Source: a virus. Taken from it: a DNA stretch of 27,410 nt. Shown piece by piece: positions 16,468 through 25,542 of the stretch. The translations under genes and the position numbers were made by a program. The notes under the pieces were generated by a model that saw nothing but the letters and a program-made list of their open reading frames with translations, was not told the origin of the DNA and did no database searches. Numbering within the stretch: position 1 is the stretch's first letter; each line of letters starts with the position of its first letter. Location: IMG/VR virus record IMGVR_UViG_3300006224_000033, positions 1-27,410 of that record; one strand, written 5' to 3'.

Positions 16468-16706
16468 CACTTTTTACGTTTTACTTTCCTCGGTAATTTC
16501 TTCCCATTGCTTTCCTTCAAATGCCTTTCCAATGCAGCAACAGACATTTTCCATACAGACATGGGAGTTTGTGAAGGCTTCTCTCTCCCCGCTTTTTTAG
16601 CCCCATAAGCTGATCCCATCATCCCTCTCTGTTTCTTACTCACAATAGGAGTATGTTTTCTTCCGATCTTACTGCACGCTTTGGTTGTCAATGATGACCT
16701 CCCCAT
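16467..16706 (-). CDS. Small very basic protein, start uncertain
   Basis: At most 79 residues, with about a third Lys or Arg, ending GKKLPRKVKRKK and containing QTPMSVWKMSVAALERHLKE, a short helix that could dock to a partner or to DNA. Two starts are possible. An ATG at 16706 has no clear ribosome site. A TTG at 16691 (74 residues) has GGGGAGG six bases upstream and is slightly favoured. A small basic protein near the packaging genes could bind DNA, but this is conjecture. Confidence 0.6.
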   Translation of the reverse strand: MGRSSLTTKACSKIGRKHTPIVSKKQRGMMGSAYGAKKAGREKPSQTPMSVWKMSVAALERHLKESNGKKLPRKVKRKK

Positions 16707-16860
16707 TCTTGTCGATAATCTCTACCTTGCTTTTCTCATGCTCCTTAATAATATCCCTTGCAAGTGCAAGCATCCCATAACAGGTCATCTTATCTTCAAT
16801 AGGTCCCGTCACGGTCATGTACCCATTATCGTCAACTTCTATCACGAGCCTGAGCATCAT
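16669..16860 (-). CDS. Small hypothetical protein near the packaging genes
   Basis: Starting at the ATG at 16860, the 63-residue protein reads MMLRLVIEVDDNGYMTVTGP and continues with a helix (CYGMLALARDIIKEHEK) and a final strand (VEIIDKNGEVII), a compact beta-alpha-beta outline. GGGAGCGG precedes the start. Longer forms starting at 16899 have no ribosome site. It overlaps the ends of both neighbours in other frames, which is common in this operon. Function is unknown. Confidence 0.6.
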   Translation of the reverse strand: MMLRLVIEVDDNGYMTVTGPIEDKMTCYGMLALARDIIKEHEKSKVEIIDKNGEVIIDNQSVQ

Positions 16861-17299
16861 CACCGCTCCCTTCTTCCGCATCGATAACATCATGCTCAAT
16901 CATTTTAGGAGCAAACTGCTTCAAAGTATCGACGTGCTTCCTCACCAGTTCCCTCACCATAGGGTTCTCGGAAGCATTGATCTGCGTAAGGTTGACTACA
17001 AACTGAGACTGAGAATTGCCGGGACTTACCCCCATGATTGTCGCAATATCTCTCCAGGCATTAAACTGAAGTTTCCTGTCTGAATCCGACAACTCATTAG
17101 GGTTAGAATGAATCAAATCCGTCAACCCCTGAAGGCTCTTGTCAATATTGGCCTGCATGAAAGACTTCTGCCTTATCTCAAGATACTGAAGTATCTCGTC
17201 TTTAGAATAGTGTTTCCATTTATCCTGTAGCTTGTAATCCGAGGCAAAAAATCTCTGGTAGATCTTCTCTGTGGCAGGACTGAACTTACTTGCAGCCAT
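16832..17299 (-). CDS. Possible terminase small subunit (first gene of late operon)
   Basis: From the ATG at 17299 (GGAG five bases upstream; a TTG at 17308 is less likely) the protein has 155 residues. It is mostly helical, with ILQYLEIRQKSFMQANIDKS, then SDRKLQFNAWRDIATIMGVS (about 70-95), a stretch that resembles the helical core of small terminase subunits, followed by QSQFVVNLTQIN and a helical, acidic tail. It is the first gene behind the promoter region of the packaging and virion operon. TerS would recognise phage DNA and start packaging. The identification rests on position and general shape. Confidence 0.45.
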   Translation of the reverse strand: MAASKFSPATEKIYQRFFASDYKLQDKWKHYSKDEILQYLEIRQKSFMQANIDKSLQGLTDLIHSNPNELSDSDRKLQFNAWRDIATIMGVSPGNSQSQFVVNLTQINASENPMVRELVRKHVDTLKQFAPKMIEHDVIDAEEGSGDDAQARDRS

Positions 17300-17368
17300 A
17301 GGCTCCAATAACTTCAGATAATCTCAGAAGATACTTGCATAAATAATACCAAATACAATCCCCCATCT

Positions 17369-17397
17369 ATCATACTTTTATTATCTTGTCAAGTAAA
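17369..17397 (-). promoter_or_regulatory. Candidate sigma-70-type promoter of the late operon
   Basis: On the minus strand TTTACT (17397-17392) and TATGAT (17374-17369) are 17 bases apart. TTGACA is also present, overlapping the spacer side at 17392-17387. The site lies about 70 bases before the first gene of the late operon in a very AT-rich stretch. The rest of 17300-17606 holds only AT-rich DNA and no convincing gene. Confidence 0.45.
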
Positions 17398-17606
17398 AAA
17401 AATAAACTATTTTTATAACTTACTAATATCATTGTTAAAAACATATGTAAAAAAATAAAATAATTTTTCAGAAATATTTATAGAAATAATAAAAATTATT
17501 AAAATAAAAATCCGAAAAATGGTATGGGTACCTTTTTTCTCCCTTGATACGCAAGCATTGCAGAGTATGTTGAGACACTTTTAATTTTATTCTTAACATA
17601 ATTATC

Positions 17607-17635
17607 TTGACATAATTCTCATTACATAGTATGCT
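17607..17635 (+). promoter_or_regulatory. Sigma-70-type promoter of the HNH gene
   Basis: A perfect TTGACA (17607-17612), a 17-base spacer and TATGCT (17630-17635) lie 21 bases before the HNH start codon, with AAAGGAGA in between. This is the best sigma-70 match in the window. Confidence 0.75.
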
Positions 17636-17656
17636 ACCAGACAAAGGAGACAACCC

Positions 17657-18193
17657 ATGAAACCTACTCACGACTTCACCAAGGCAATCGAGATGTACAC
17701 TACCCAACTTATGTCCCTTCAACCGATCTCTGAACACTTCGGAGTCTCACGACAGGCAATATGGTTCTATTTAAGAAAAAATGGAATAGATACTTCCAAA
17801 CACCGAATCCCTGTAAAATGCCATATCTGCAATAAAGATTTCGTTAAACCAAGATGCCTAATAAGATCCTCTATTCACAACTTCTGCTCTAAAAAATGCT
17901 ATTTCCAGTACATCGGAAGCCAACCCTACCAGGAACACCGAGACGGTCAACGCTTAGGCAGAAGAGTATTTGAATCTAACTTCGGCTTCATGCACGATTG
18001 GATTATACATCACGTTGACGGAGATAATTACAATAATAAACTATCCAACCTCTGGGCATTCAAAACTCACTCCGACCACATGAGATACCACCAAGGAGGT
18101 TCTTCGGAAGCATTCATACCTAAATCTGGTACTTGGGAAATGGTAAATAAAAACATGCAGGTTAAGAAGGGTAAAAAATTGATTCAAAGATGA
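17657..18193 (+). CDS. HNH endonuclease with N-terminal HTH and zinc site
   Basis: The 178-residue protein probably nicks or cuts DNA. Residues 13-43 form a resolvase-like helix-turn-helix (LQPISEHFGVSRQAIWFYLR). Four cysteines (55, 58, 77, 81) in CHIC and CSKKC form a zinc site. The HNH core is IIHHVDGDNYNN (116-127), with NLWAFKTHSDHMRYH (131-145) supplying the later His and Asn ligands. It has its own promoter and points away from the packaging operon. Free-standing HNH enzymes in phages act as homing enzymes or as helpers in DNA packaging; the location next to the late operon start fits either. No intron boundary is seen. Confidence 0.88.
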   Translation: MKPTHDFTKAIEMYTTQLMSLQPISEHFGVSRQAIWFYLRKNGIDTSKHRIPVKCHICNKDFVKPRCLIRSSIHNFCSKKCYFQYIGSQPYQEHRDGQRLGRRVFESNFGFMHDWIIHHVDGDNYNNKLSNLWAFKTHSDHMRYHQGGSSEAFIPKSGTWEMVNKNMQVKKGKKLIQR

Positions 18194-18317
18194 TAAGCAT
18201 AATGGTTTTAGATAAATAGGAAAATATATGATTGGGATTTTATACCCTTATGTGTAGGTAGGTTAAAGACTACGTCGTCATGGGACCCAATCTTCCTCCC
18301 GCTCCCCACCCCACCCT

Positions 18318-18344
18318 TTGACATTTTGTCCACTATTTTATAAC
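18318..18344 (+). promoter_or_regulatory. Weak sigma-70-like promoter in gene-free stretch
   Basis: TTGACA (18318-18323) and TATAAC (18339-18344) are 15 bases apart, shorter than optimal, and GACA...TGTC forms a small inverted repeat over the -35 box. No reading frame follows for 570 bases, so if active it would give a noncoding RNA or a long leader. Confidence 0.25.
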
Positions 18345-18386
18345 TACTCGATATAACTACATATCCTAAGCTGTTTACATAGTTAC

Positions 18387-18619
18387 AATCTTATAGGGGA
18401 TATTATGTTAACTTCAGATAAATCAATATACATCATTGTTATCAATTGGTTGCAAGGATAGCTTGTATATTACCATGATAATCAACATCCAGTACCTGAC
18501 CGGAGCCGGCCTCGATCCTGGGTTATTAGCTCCAATGATGCAGAATTGCATCACTGATGCAATATTGCATATTATGTGAGCGTTAGTTGAATCTATACTA
18601 ATCTTATAGGAATATTATG
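18387..18619. repeat. Spaced direct repeat flanking the control region
   Basis: AATCTTATAGGGGATATTATG (18387-18407, 21 bases) recurs as AATCTTATAGGAATATTATG (18600-18619), with one gap and one substitution. The copies are 213 bases apart and bracket a short GC-rich island (ccggagccggcc, near 18500) and the tandem dyads. The stretch 18194-18864 contains no convincing gene; it holds these repeats, the dyads and AT-rich tracts, and could be an origin or a control region. Confidence 0.5.
18536..18572. promoter_or_regulatory. Two tandem 18-bp dyads (operator or enhancer sites)
   Basis: TGATGCA-N4-TGCATCA (18536-18553) is a perfect inverted repeat. One base later the same pattern recurs with two mismatches (18555-18572). 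The centres are 19 bases apart. Paired dyads like this are usual binding sites for dimeric regulators. They lie about 300 bases upstream of the first GG-N10-GC promoter-like element, a distance at which bacterial enhancer-binding proteins can work. Confidence 0.6.
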
Positions 18620-18662
18620 AATCTATAATTGAATCGATATTAGGATCATTGGAAGGTTTACT

Positions 18663-18737
18663 ATAATTATTATTAAGATTATTATTATAAGTACTATTAT
18701 TATACTCTTTATTATTATTATTATCTGATTATTATTG
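18663..18737. repeat. ATT/TAT-rich low-complexity tract
   Basis: About 75 bases consist almost entirely of ATT, TTA and TAT trinucleotides broken by short interruptions. It would melt easily and is not coding on either strand. It might be an unwinding element or simply repeat slippage. Confidence 0.5.
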
Positions 18738-18813
18738 CGTGTACGTAGGGGAGGACTATTATTTATTGATTTACTTATTGGATAATTTGTCAAGCAAAAA
18801 AAAGAAATGGAGT

Positions 18814-18847
18814 CCTCTATTAAAGGATAGGGTTTTCCTTTTTTTTT
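18814..18847 (+). terminator. Possible terminator before the first repeat leader
   Basis: CCTCTAT and ATAGGG can pair with one bulged base, followed by TTTTCC and nine T residues. The stem is short and imperfect, so termination is uncertain; it would insulate the downstream promoter from upstream transcription. Confidence 0.35.
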
Positions 18848-18859
18848 GGTGGATAGCTG

Positions 18860-18922
18860 AAACATGGCACAAAACTTGCTTTAATAAATGGTATCTCAAA
18901 TATGAAAGGAGCAAGGAAAATG
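18860..18922 (+). repeat. 63-bp leader repeat, copy A
   Basis: This stretch is 58/63 identical to 19236-19298. It contains a GG-N10-GC promoter-like element, an untranslated leader, the AAAGGAG ribosome site and the start codon of the following gene. Downstream of the start codon the two genes are unrelated, so only the control segment is duplicated. Confidence 0.9.
18865..18880 (+). promoter_or_regulatory. Sigma-54 (RpoN)-type promoter 1
   Basis: TGGCAC-AAAAC-TTGCT matches the -24/-12 consensus TGGCAC-N5-TTGCW at every specified position, with GG and GC separated by the obligatory ten bases. The -12 GC is 41 bases before the start codon of the next gene. Transcription would need RpoN and an enhancer-binding ATPase. 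Confidence 0.7.
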
Positions 18923-19186
18923 AAAAATATGAATGACGTAAACACGGTATTAAGAAACGAATTAAATCAGTGGTTTAAAAAACAATGTCAAAATGAATGG
19001 AATGATTATTATTTATACTATCTACCAACAACACCAGAATATAACGGTGGATTGCTGATTGCAAACAAAAAACCTGCCAATCCAGAATATCAAGTAGTAA
19101 GAAGTATTCAAAAACACCTTACAATAGAACATAATCATAGAATTTTGTTAGAAATGTGCCGAAGCCTGCCAATATTAGAATATTAA
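18920..19186 (+). CDS. Small hypothetical protein behind RpoN-type promoter 1
   Basis: The start is taken at the ATG at 18920, because AAAGGAG, the ribosome site, lies inside the apparent extension from the ATG at 18902. The 88-residue protein begins MKNMNDVNTVLRNELNQWFK, is rich in Asn, Gln and Tyr, and has a Tyr-rich YYLYYLPTTPEYNGGLLI segment. I recognise no family. It shares only its leader, not its protein sequence, with the next gene. Its role is presumably tied to conditions that activate RpoN. Confidence 0.6.
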   Translation: MKNMNDVNTVLRNELNQWFKKQCQNEWNDYYLYYLPTTPEYNGGLLIANKKPANPEYQVVRSIQKHLTIEHNHRILLEMCRSLPILEY

Positions 19187-19235
19187 ATGAAAGGTAGGAT
19201 CATAAAATGATAGAAAGATTTGTGGGGTTACATTT

Positions 19236-19298
19236 AAACTTGGCACAATAAATGCTTTAATAAATGGTATCTCAAATATGAAAGGAGCAAGGAAGATG
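19236..19298 (+). repeat. 63-bp leader repeat, copy B
   Basis: Second copy of the repeat at 18860-18922, 376 bases downstream, with five substitutions, four of them in or next to the promoter-like part. It ends at the start codon of the next gene. The identical part includes the whole leader and ribosome site. Confidence 0.9.
19241..19255 (+). promoter_or_regulatory. Sigma-54 (RpoN)-type promoter 2
   Basis: TGGCAC-AATAA-ATGC keeps the GG-N10-GC spacing (GG 19242-19243, GC 19254-19255), with the -12 element ATGC in place of TTGC. The GC is again 41 bases before the start codon. It is part of repeat copy B. Confidence 0.6.
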
Positions 19299-19541
19299 GA
19301 AAAAATCAGAGTATACACAAAAGAAAGGGGAATTAGAGTATTAAAGGAAGGAGTTACGCTTGAACAATATCGAATTAAGTATCCGGATGCCATAACTGTA
19401 CGCAAGCCTCCATGTATCAAGACTCTTGAAAAATGGAGCAAGGATTGTGGATGCAGGGCTATTGACGGATGCTGGGTTGAACCCGATGGAGAATGCGAAC
19501 ATGGTCTTCCCTCATGGTTAGTGGCAATGAATTTTATTTAA
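19296..19541 (+). CDS. Cys-rich small protein behind RpoN-type promoter 2
   Basis: Starting at the ATG at 19296 (the ATG at 19278 is within the leader), the protein has 81 residues. The C-terminal half carries DCGCRAIDGCWVEPDGECEH followed by GLPSWLVAMNFI. The C.C....C......C.H spacing suggests a bound metal, and the DGCWVEPDGECEHG.PSWL pattern is one I associate with small phage and bacterial proteins of unknown function. The first half is basic with predicted strands. A strong terminator follows 15 bases after the stop, making this a one-gene unit. Confidence 0.7.
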   Translation: MEKIRVYTKERGIRVLKEGVTLEQYRIKYPDAITVRKPPCIKTLEKWSKDCGCRAIDGCWVEPDGECEHGLPSWLVAMNFI

Positions 19542-19556
19542 TCACTTGATCCCTCG

Positions 19557-19591
19557 ATACCCAGGACCTTAACCTTCCTGGGTATTTTTTT
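19557..19591 (+). terminator. Strong rho-independent terminator
   Basis: A perfect 10-bp stem (ATACCCAGGA with TCCTGGGTAT), a 9-base loop and a run of seven T residues follow the 81-residue gene. Confidence 0.92.
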
Positions 19592-19608
19592 GTCCTCTTT
19601 TATCCTCC

Positions 19609-19785
19609 GTGTATAAAAACGTAACAACTGTTGAAATCACATATAACATATTAATATAATTTATAAATTCCAATCAATTATTTTTTCATCCCTAAAATAT
19701 GTATCAAAACGTAACAACTATAAATGTTTAATATCATTAAATAATGTCAAATAGTGGTGTTTTGGTGTATCAAAAGGTTACGACC
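19609..19785 (+). repeat. Three 21-bp iteron-like direct repeats
   Basis: Copies lie at 19609-19629, 19699-19719 and 19765-19785. The first two share TAtmAAAACGTAACAACT (18 of the last 19 bases); the third is diverged (CAAAAGGTTACGACC). Starts are 90 and 66 bases apart, all in the same orientation. The interval 19592-19936 is very AT-rich and has no gene. The repeats lie between a terminator and the third GG-N10-GC element, so they could be regulator sites or replication iterons. Confidence 0.7.
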
Positions 19786-19882: not shown

Positions 19883-19898
19883 TGGCAATGAAATTGCA
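19883..19898 (+). promoter_or_regulatory. Sigma-54 (RpoN)-type promoter 3 or operator
   Basis: TGGCAATGAAATTGCA has GG (19884-19885) and GC (19896-19897) ten bases apart, with TTGCA as a good -12. The GC is 40 bases before the next start codon, the same spacing as the other two. It is also a small inverted repeat (GCAAT-GAA-ATTGC), so it could instead be an operator. Confidence 0.5.
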
Positions 19899-19936: not shown

Positions 19937-20530
19937 ATGGAAAAAATGAAACAGATAGAAAGCAAGGAGGATTTTTTAAGATGGGCTCATGAAGTTAATC
20001 TTCACATCGAAAGCAAAAAAAATGGAATCTGTGATCTTCAAGATGTATTTTACAAAGGCCAGGAAGGGGATCTCAAGCAATTAAAGGAATGGTTTCTTGA
20101 TTGTACTCAAACAGAGAAACAGCTTTTAACCTTCTCTATTATTAAGGCAATGGGTGAAGAAATGGCCTATAAATTTATCAAGGCATGGGCTCTGCATCAA
20201 GCTGATAAATGTATCCATGAATATGAAGAATCGTTTACCGCAAGGGAATATAAGCTGTACGAATCCGAAAAGGCCCTAAATAAGGATAGGGTTGAAATTG
20301 AATCTCAGCTTGAATATGCCAAAAAAGAGATCAAAGAATTAAACGAATTGTTGGAAAATAGCAGAATCAACAACGACGGGCTGCACCAAACAATAACAAG
20401 ATTGTCTAACAATAATTATCAGTTGTCTGTTGACCTTGATAATGCCTATAAGGAGCTTAATAAAATGCAGGCATTTAAACAGACATTAAAAGAAATTATA
20501 GGCCAGGATATATCAAGTTTAACCCCCTAA
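19937..20530 (+). CDS. Coiled-coil hypothetical protein, first gene of accessory operon
   Basis: The 197-residue protein has a helical N-terminal domain (about 8-95, with two Trp-containing helices and LLTFSIIKAMGEEMAYKFIK) and a long coiled coil (about 98-190) ending in a short tail. GGGAGGAAAGG precedes the ATG. No enzymatic motif or membrane segment is visible. The coiled coil suggests self-assembly or partner binding. It heads a run of ten genes that reaches the terminator at 22893. Confidence 0.7.
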   Translation: MEKMKQIESKEDFLRWAHEVNLHIESKKNGICDLQDVFYKGQEGDLKQLKEWFLDCTQTEKQLLTFSIIKAMGEEMAYKFIKAWALHQADKCIHEYEESFTAREYKLYESEKALNKDRVEIESQLEYAKKEIKELNELLENSRINNDGLHQTITRLSNNNYQLSVDLDNAYKELNKMQAFKQTLKEIIGQDISSLTP

Positions 20531-20602: not shown

Positions 20603-20935
20603 ATGGAACAAAAGAAAAAGTATCAAGAAGCATTATCAAGGGCAGCAGGAGGTTTGACTATGTCAAATTATCCTACCATTATTAACGGGTTCATTCAAAA
20701 GGGTATTCCTGAAGATCAAATTGAACCCCGGAAAAATGTTTTTACCTATGATGCATGGAAGGCCTTGGGACGTTACGTTAAGAAGGGTGAACATGGGGTT
20801 CGGGTAGTAACTTTTTTAAAGGTTGAAAAAAAAGAAGTTGATGAACAAACGGGGAAAGAGGTTTCAAGGGTTAATTCCCGTCCATGGATGACAACAGTTT
20901 TCCACGTAACACAAACGGAAGCTATTAACCCCTAA
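20603..20935 (+). CDS. ArdC N-terminal-domain-like ssDNA-binding protein
   Basis: The 110-residue protein matches the N-terminal domain of ArdC-type antirestriction proteins. Signs are NVFTYDAWKALGRYVKKGEH (about 45-64), then GVRVVTFLKVEKK and the ending RPWMTTVFHVTQTEAI (about 92-108). In full-length ArdC this part binds single-stranded DNA and a C-terminal metalloprotease-like domain follows. Here that domain is absent, so this is a stand-alone DNA-binding module. It may protect entering DNA or act in replication or recombination. AGGGAGG precedes the start. Confidence 0.8.
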   Translation: MEQKKKYQEALSRAAGGLTMSNYPTIINGFIQKGIPEDQIEPRKNVFTYDAWKALGRYVKKGEHGVRVVTFLKVEKKEVDEQTGKEVSRVNSRPWMTTVFHVTQTEAINP

Positions 20936-20940
20936 CCCAT

Positions 20941-20976
20941 AGCTGCCCTATCGGCTATACGGGGAGAAATGGGAGG
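20941..20976 (+). promoter_or_regulatory. Intergenic leader element, copy 1
   Basis: AGCTGCCCTATCGGCTATAC followed by GGGGAGAAATGGGAGG. AGCTG can pair with CGGCT around a 6-base loop (one G-U pair). The element ends in the ribosome site of the next gene. A near copy is at 21231-21265, and looser versions occur in the other gaps of this operon. Confidence 0.55.
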
Positions 20977-20981
20977 TAATG

Positions 20982-21230: not shown

Positions 21231-21265
21231 AGCTGACCTATCGGCTTGACGGGGAGAAAGGGAGG
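21231..21265 (+). promoter_or_regulatory. Intergenic leader element, copy 2
   Basis: Near copy of 20941-20976, with AGCTGACCTATCGGCTTGAC followed by GGGGAGAAAGGGAGG. It differs at three positions and lacks one base. The hairpin bases AGCTG and CGGCT are conserved, while three of the differences fall in the loop and the linker, as expected for an RNA element under selection. Confidence 0.55.
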
Positions 21266-21272
21266 GTTGAAA

Positions 21273-24769: not shown

Positions 24770-24976
24770 TTATTTGGGCTTATCAGGCCCAATCAGAAAA
24801 TCATGCTCTTCGTCGCCAGGGAGTTTATAGCCAGGTTCGCAATCCTGGATGTCATAGCCTCCTGTGCATTCAAATAAGCCATCCTCTAATGAGCAGGCAC
24901 AATCATCGGATTGGTTGAACAATCCATCATAGCCATTGTCGATTAGATACTTTTCGATGATTTCTGAGATTGTCAT
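24770..24976 (-). CDS. Cys-rich small phage protein
   Basis: From the ATG at 24976 the protein has 68 residues. This start overlaps the Mom-like stop (ATGA), has GGGAGAAAA upstream, and is favoured over the ATG at 24991. It opens MTISEIIEKYLIDNGYDGLF and continues with DDCACSLEDGLFECTGGYDI and QDCEPGYKL. The LKANGYDGL...C.C.L......C.....C.PG pattern is known from many phages, with no assigned function; the four or five cysteines could bind a metal. Confidence 0.75.
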   Translation of the reverse strand: MTISEIIEKYLIDNGYDGLFNQSDDCACSLEDGLFECTGGYDIQDCEPGYKLPGDEEHDFLIGPDKPK

Positions 24977-25542
24977 AAAGTTTTCTCCCATCTAATTTTT
25001 TCCCCAGTTGCAATTATTTCATTTCTGATTCTTCCATTGCCTTTTTTTGATAGTTTTCCCCATCTAATTTCGCTTTTTTTAGTAATGTGTCCAATGTTCC
25101 AACCAGATGCTTTATATATGGTTCCTGCGTGAACATCCGTATCCTGATAACTTATTATCTTTTTTAGCCATGGCTTAGACTTTCTTAAAATTTTTATAGT
25201 AACTGAAATCATTCTTGAAGCTGTATTTTTAGGGGCATCACTTGAAATTGCCATTCTCCTTAACTCTAACGTAGGAGTTCCATTAAAAGCCCTTGCTACT
25301 GGTGGGCCGAATATCATAACCGCATAAAATCTATTGGAATATTCTGCGGAATATGCTTCACAGGCTTGCCAGTTTGTTAAATTTGGAAGTCTCGAATGCC
25401 ATAACCTATTTAATTGAAGGGCTTTTTTAATATCTATTTTTTCTATATTTAATTGGAGCGGAGAGGTCGGAATCGAACCGCCACCTTCAACTTGGAAAAG
25501 CGGACGTGCTACCCTTACACTATCTCCGCATACATTAAGCAT
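24973..25542 (-). CDS. Mom-like GNAT-fold protein, putative DNA adenine hypermodification
   Basis: The frame runs 189 codons from an ATG at 25542 that overlaps the previous stop (TAATG) and has GGAGAAGGAAAG upstream. Residues about 31-165 match the phage Mu Mom / XF1762-type acyltransferase-like family, with ELRRMAISSDAPKNTASRMI (93-112) and IISYQDTDVHAGTIYKASGW (129-148), then NIGH. Mom converts adenine in DNA to a carbamoylmethyl derivative and so blocks restriction. Residues 5-30 are encoded by the tRNA gene on the same strand and look non-native; the family-like part begins LNIEKIDIKKALQLN with no ATG, GTG or TTG nearby. A shorter or unusual start, or a split transcript, is possible. Confidence 0.7.
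   Translation of the reverse strand: MLNVCGDSVRVARPLFQVEGGGSIPTSPLQLNIEKIDIKKALQLNRLWHSRLPNLTNWQACEAYSAEYSNRFYAVMIFGPPVARAFNGTPTLELRRMAISSDAPKNTASRMISVTIKILRKSKPWLKKIISYQDTDVHAGTIYKASGWNIGHITKKSEIRWGKLSKKGNGRIRNEIIATGEKIRWEKTL
25454..25529 (-). tRNA. tRNA-Gly(UCC)-like gene with encoded CCA, slightly irregular
   Basis: On the minus strand GCGGAGA pairs perfectly with TCTCCGC, followed by discriminator T and encoded CCA. The D arm is GTGT...GCAC and the T loop is TTCGATT. The anticodon arm TCCGC-TTTTCCAA-GTTGA resembles tRNA-Gly with anticodon TCC. Two irregularities are seen compared with a normal Gly tRNA: the anticodon loop has eight bases, its stem has a mismatch plus a G-U pair, and the T stem has one unpaired base (GGCGG with CCGACC). 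It could be functional or a decaying copy. It lies inside the 5' end of the Mom-like frame. Confidence 0.7.

Follow-up and report, generated by a model that had tools for sequence, protein, structure and literature searches.

Duplicated cassettes ahead of two unrelated genes

The window analyzed in this study, a virus record of 27,410 bp, contains two nearly identical segments placed ahead of two small genes, which raises the question of whether these segments are promoters, by which sigma factor they would be read and where that sigma factor would come from. We conclude that both segments, together with a third site located before the next gene, very likely contain sigma-54 (RpoN) promoters of a tailed phage. 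This interpretation rests on what the sequence shows, namely the sites themselves, their spacing, their place before gene starts, their recurrence in other phages at the head of the same operon and the controls with altered spacing; promoter activity, dependence on RpoN and the involvement of a host activator are inferred, as there are no expression data and the host is not known.

Capsid, portal and terminase-type genes occupy the minus strand of the window. The plus strand carries a small-gene block between ∼18.9 and ∼22.9 kb, with the cassettes at its head. Because the block diverges from the structural and packaging genes, we infer that it probably has an early or host-takeover role. An AT-rich intergenic region without a convincing ORF (18194-18864) extends from an HNH gene (17657-18193) to site A; the best sigma-70-type site in its last 300 bp reaches just 9/12 matches (shuffle P 0.91). 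A near-perfect palindrome (18538-18570, 16-nt arms, 88%) is located ∼300 bp upstream of site A. The minus strand also encodes a relative of a Mom-like DNA modification protein (24973-25542; PHROG 1384, 1.6e-22) and a tRNA-Gly (TCC) identified by ARAGORN and Rfam (25458-25530).

Each control cassette consists of a promoter-type site, a leader, an RBS and a start codon on the plus strand. Copy A (18860-18922) and copy B (19236-19298) end with the ATG codons of gene A (18920-18922) and gene B (19296-19298), and the repeat finder extends the repeat to 71 nt at 90% identity. The original prediction described 63-bp segments, 58/63 identical, ending at the start codons of unrelated proteins, each with TGGCAC, with GG and GC ten bases apart and 41 bases before the ATG; all of these features were recovered on recheck in both copies. 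The proteins of 88 and 81 aa encoded by genes A and B have no match to one another. Both copies possess another in-frame ATG 18 bp upstream of the start; the gene B start at 19296 is backed by relatives with the N-terminus M-E-K-I-R-V-Y. We propose that one promoter-leader-RBS unit was duplicated, with different cargo behind each copy. An exact search of the viral contigs with the window leader gave 0 matches. A second duplicated leader, which lacks a sigma-54-type site, precedes two other small genes of the window (20941-20977 and 21231-21267, 84% over 37 nt); thus, leader duplication by itself is not special in this window.

Gene A (18920-19186, plus strand) has no known function and no meaningful family match in Pfam, PHROGs or NCBIfam. 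As a single query it retrieved 0 relatives, and two relatives with ∼50% identity turned up by tblastn within the fetched loci (L057 and L005/L012). Gene B (19296-19541, plus strand), also of no known function, belongs to a family of short proteins with the signature DGC..EPDG.C.HG.PSWL and many relatives among viral contigs (IMG/VR loci), and the window member has no match in Pfam, PHROGs or NCBIfam. The predicted fold of gene B is confident (mean pLDDT 94); in fold searches, no PDB structure matched gene A or gene B at E <= 0.001. Downstream of gene B lies a probable intrinsic terminator (19556-19592, plus strand), an 11-bp stem and then a T run (RNA fold -16.9 kcal/mol, z -4.3), and therefore gene C requires its own promoter. 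Gene C (19937-20530, plus strand) encodes a 197-aa coiled-coil protein with weak coiled-coil matches to scaffold families, below the cut-off. Next in the block is a gene with the N-terminal domain of the ArdC anti-restriction family (20603-20935, plus strand; Pfam ArdcN 5e-8, over the cut-off).

Sigma-54-type sites A, B and C

The three best sigma-54-type sites of the window are all located on the plus strand, each directly upstream of one of three consecutive genes: site A (TGGCACAAAACTTGCT, 18865-18880, score 26.5, transcription start predicted near 18891), site B (TGGCACAATAAATGCT, 19241-19256, score 25) and site C (TGGCAATGAAATTGCA, 19883-19898, score 24.5). The scores derive from our own simple consensus weighting and not from a trained matrix. 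Site C, which lies 54 bp upstream of gene C (19937), had not been picked up in the original prediction. The GG and GC elements (-24/-12) are ten bases apart in all three window sites, as well as in six gene B relatives. The distance from the site start to the ATG is 54-55 bp in each case, on the same strand as the gene, and in sites A and B, which share the pattern GG-N10-GC, it is the last GC base that falls 41 bases before the ATG.

When the 300 bp preceding each start were dinucleotide-shuffled, P was 0.001, 0.002 and 0.002 for sites A, B and C, respectively, vs 0.88 and 0.68 for two control leaders on the same strand; the former control is the leader of the ArdC-type gene, which has no sigma-54-type site. 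Over both strands of the whole window, 3 sites scoring at least 24 were observed vs 0.47 expected from first-order Markov random sequences. The TGGCAC/TTGCW consensus of the window sites therefore exceeds chance, as judged by the shuffles and by the spacing controls described below. The next best sites of the window score 23.5; equally good GG-N10-GC matches inside phage genes, which would have refuted the original prediction, were not encountered. Sites A and B are copies and represent one event rather than two independent ones, and site C is independent.

Gene C is also preceded by a sigma-70-like element, TTGAAA-N18-TATAAT (11/12), ∼280 bp upstream, which counts against the sigma-54 reading of site C. 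Three TGTATMAAAACGTAACAACT-like direct repeats upstream of site C (19610-19785, plus strand, at 19610, 19700 and 19766) are candidate activator or operator sites, a function that is inferred only. The TTGTCAAG motifs found upstream were weighed as enhancers, although they may instead represent the -35 boxes of sigma-70 promoters that point the other way.

Gene B operon heads in other viral contigs

A sigma-54-type site heads the gene B operon in six other contigs (L013, L014, L034, L061, L066 and L050), with scores of 22 to 27.5 and shuffle P of 0.001 to 0.018. L013 and L014 share a common leader with a different first gene behind it in each; beyond the motif, the leaders of the remaining four contigs are like neither that of the window nor each other. 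A terminase gene is located on the opposite strand in L013, L014, L061 and L066, and a packaging-type gene in L034. Where present, the terminases of these gene B loci are of different types. As at site C, repeats occur upstream in L034 and L066, their sequences differing between phages. In L014, a second sigma-54-type site (5697, plus strand, score 24.5) is found ∼930 bp upstream of the gene B one.

In six more contigs (L065, L019, L059, L062, L037 and L053), the gene B operon is headed by a sigma-70-type promoter with 10 to 12 of 12 matches (shuffle P 0.005 to 0.020). In L013, an 11/12 sigma-70-type site accompanies the sigma-54-type one, and L057 has neither kind. L062 and L053 contain nominal sigma-54 matches too (P 0.019 and 0.015, respectively) in which the TGGCA core is absent; these matches and the two kinds of site in L013 count against the sigma-54 interpretation. 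The sister phages L005/L012, L010 and L011 carry hairpin leaders of the CCCTGAG(A/C)AA(T/C)CAGGGCAAGG type ahead of successive genes of the gene B operon.

Collection-wide scan of IMG/VR

We scanned IMG/VR for a full consensus site followed by an RBS and an ATG. The scan identified 53 matches at the true spacing vs 10 with one extra spacer base (45 vs 7 after near-identical contigs had been removed by eye), a control that alters one thing only. The ORFs downstream of the true-spacing matches are mostly short. Within the scan loci, 77 sites score at least 26, vs 1, 3 and 3 at spacing +1, +2 and +3; 45 of the 77 are those selected by the scan and 32 are further sites. When 14 scan contigs were searched whole, 38 consensus sites were found, 14 of them of the selected kind, whereas neither spacing +1 nor the reversed pattern gave any.

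In at least nine scan matches (L080, L085, L086, L092, L102, L103, L106, L108 and L114), the opposite strand encodes a terminase at a distance of 1 to 4.6 kb upstream, the same layout as in the gene B loci; L112 has its terminase gene downstream and on the same strand. The scan rests on the IMG/VR viral calls, which are backed by terminase neighbours for part of the set only. Four sigma-54-type sites apiece are present in L118 and L114, where similar leaders precede proteins without any mutual match; the arrangement first proposed for the window, a duplicated cassette carrying independent cargo, is therefore recurrent. In L079 (contig G021), there are eleven consensus sites, of which ten fall on a single strand within ∼2.1 kb (16674-18802), more than ordinary promoters would require. 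No such arrays were found in two cultured phages with L114-related terminases, Rhizobium phage RHph_X3_2 and Shewanella phage S0112 (49.9 kb scanned in each), which have zero sites and one site scoring at least 25, respectively.

The sigma-54 reading of the cassettes, as originally put forward, is thus supported by the spacing controls, by conservation at the operon head across different terminases and by the third site before gene C. The same data bear on the possibility that the repeat is mainly a translation leader (an RBS unit) duplicated by recombination, its likeness to sigma-54 promoters being coincidental. Leaders duplicated without a sigma-54-type site do exist, both in the second leader pair of the window and as CCCTGAG..CTCAGGG-like leaders recurring ahead of successive genes in L005/L012 and L010. 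However, the gene B operon heads in other phages, like site C, share the motif but not the leader, and the spacing controls speak against coincidence, so we consider this explanation improbable.

Source of the sigma factor and the activator

No RpoN gene (PF04552) was detected in the window or in the 35 scan-hit records, in a search whose controls were recovered and whose records may be fragments. The activator-type AAA+ domain (PF00158) is absent from the window; among 55 records, which again may be fragments, it exceeds the cut-off in one (G028) and falls below it in one more. Given the lack of RpoN and the scarcity of the activator domain in the viral records, the host is the simplest source of both, and the sigma factor and its activator are probably host proteins. 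A host search of genome contigs retrieved nothing beyond a partial match to gene B from a Chloroflexi bin, the terminases have only remote matches to cultured phages, and no enhancer sequence shared between the phages was found.

It could be argued that a phage-encoded transcription factor or RNA polymerase recognizes the TGGCAC-N5-TTGC element, which would then resemble a sigma-54 promoter by chance; the sites do repeat within one phage and on one strand, as phage-specific promoters do. We give this little credence, since the element and its spacing fit the published consensus of bacterial sigma-54 (RpoN) promoters, TGGCAC-N5-7-TTGCT (PMC12316311), in phages that differ widely in GC content and in the type of terminase. 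The absence of a single-subunit RNA polymerase gene from 11 records also argues against it, weakly, since the positive control failed to ring. Least plausible is that the sites bind something else, as operators or as replication or packaging repeats, and are not promoters: the L079 array exceeds promoter needs, but the bases between the two blocks are free to vary while the block spacing is fixed, and at most loci an RBS and a start codon follow 41 to 92 bp after the site, on its own strand.

Under the preferred assignment to RpoN, host RNA polymerase with host RpoN would form a closed complex on the -24/-12 elements, which only a host AAA+ enhancer-binding protein would open. Transcription of genes A to C and of the block behind them, which includes the ArdC-type gene, would then take place only while this activator is active. 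Candidates for activator sites are the direct repeats that precede site C and those of L034 and L066. As no activator has been identified, a link to nitrogen, stress or stationary phase remains a guess. It is tempting to speculate about a PspF-like activator answering membrane stress, such that infection would be its own trigger; nothing here bears on this idea.

Comparison with known systems

In the usual account, sigma-70 promoters or phage polymerases set phage programmes in motion. RpoN promoters do not fire without an ATP-burning activator, and therefore a phage that uses them makes some of its genes conditional on host physiology. Our search of the open-access literature, which did not extend to subscription journals and preprints, yielded no report of sigma-54 promoters driving blocks of phage genes. 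Our results suggest that some phages tie a gene block to host RpoN regulators. Somewhat more speculatively, we favor a general model in which RpoN promoters drive a packaging-divergent block in unrelated tailed phages, frequently as duplicated cassettes that differ in cargo, and the infection programme would thereby partly await a host enhancer-binding protein, for example one activated by infection stress.

The window sites are similar to bacterial sigma-54 promoters in their core, spacing and distance to the start codon, and differ from them in that they head phage gene blocks and have no assigned activator or enhancer. A link between a phage and sigma-54 has likewise been proposed for Pectobacterium phage Q19, which encodes a putative sigma-54-like protein with a weak structural match (E 0.67) (PMC7693777); there the evidence is a phage protein, whereas here it is the promoters, and no phage RpoN was found. 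RpoN-dependent transcription is also tied to phage infection in the phage shock response, which involves the psp operon, PspF and RpoN (PMC3844500, PMC4641369). However, the psp genes are host genes answering infection, whereas the genes of the window are the phage's own.

Finally, sigma-70 early promoters of phages are a known type, and TTGACA-N17-TATAAT-like elements head the operons of six gene B relatives, whereas in the window and in six others this position is taken by the sigma-54 type. Since gene B relatives carry sigma-70-type operon heads, related operons allow the two promoter classes to be compared for their effect.
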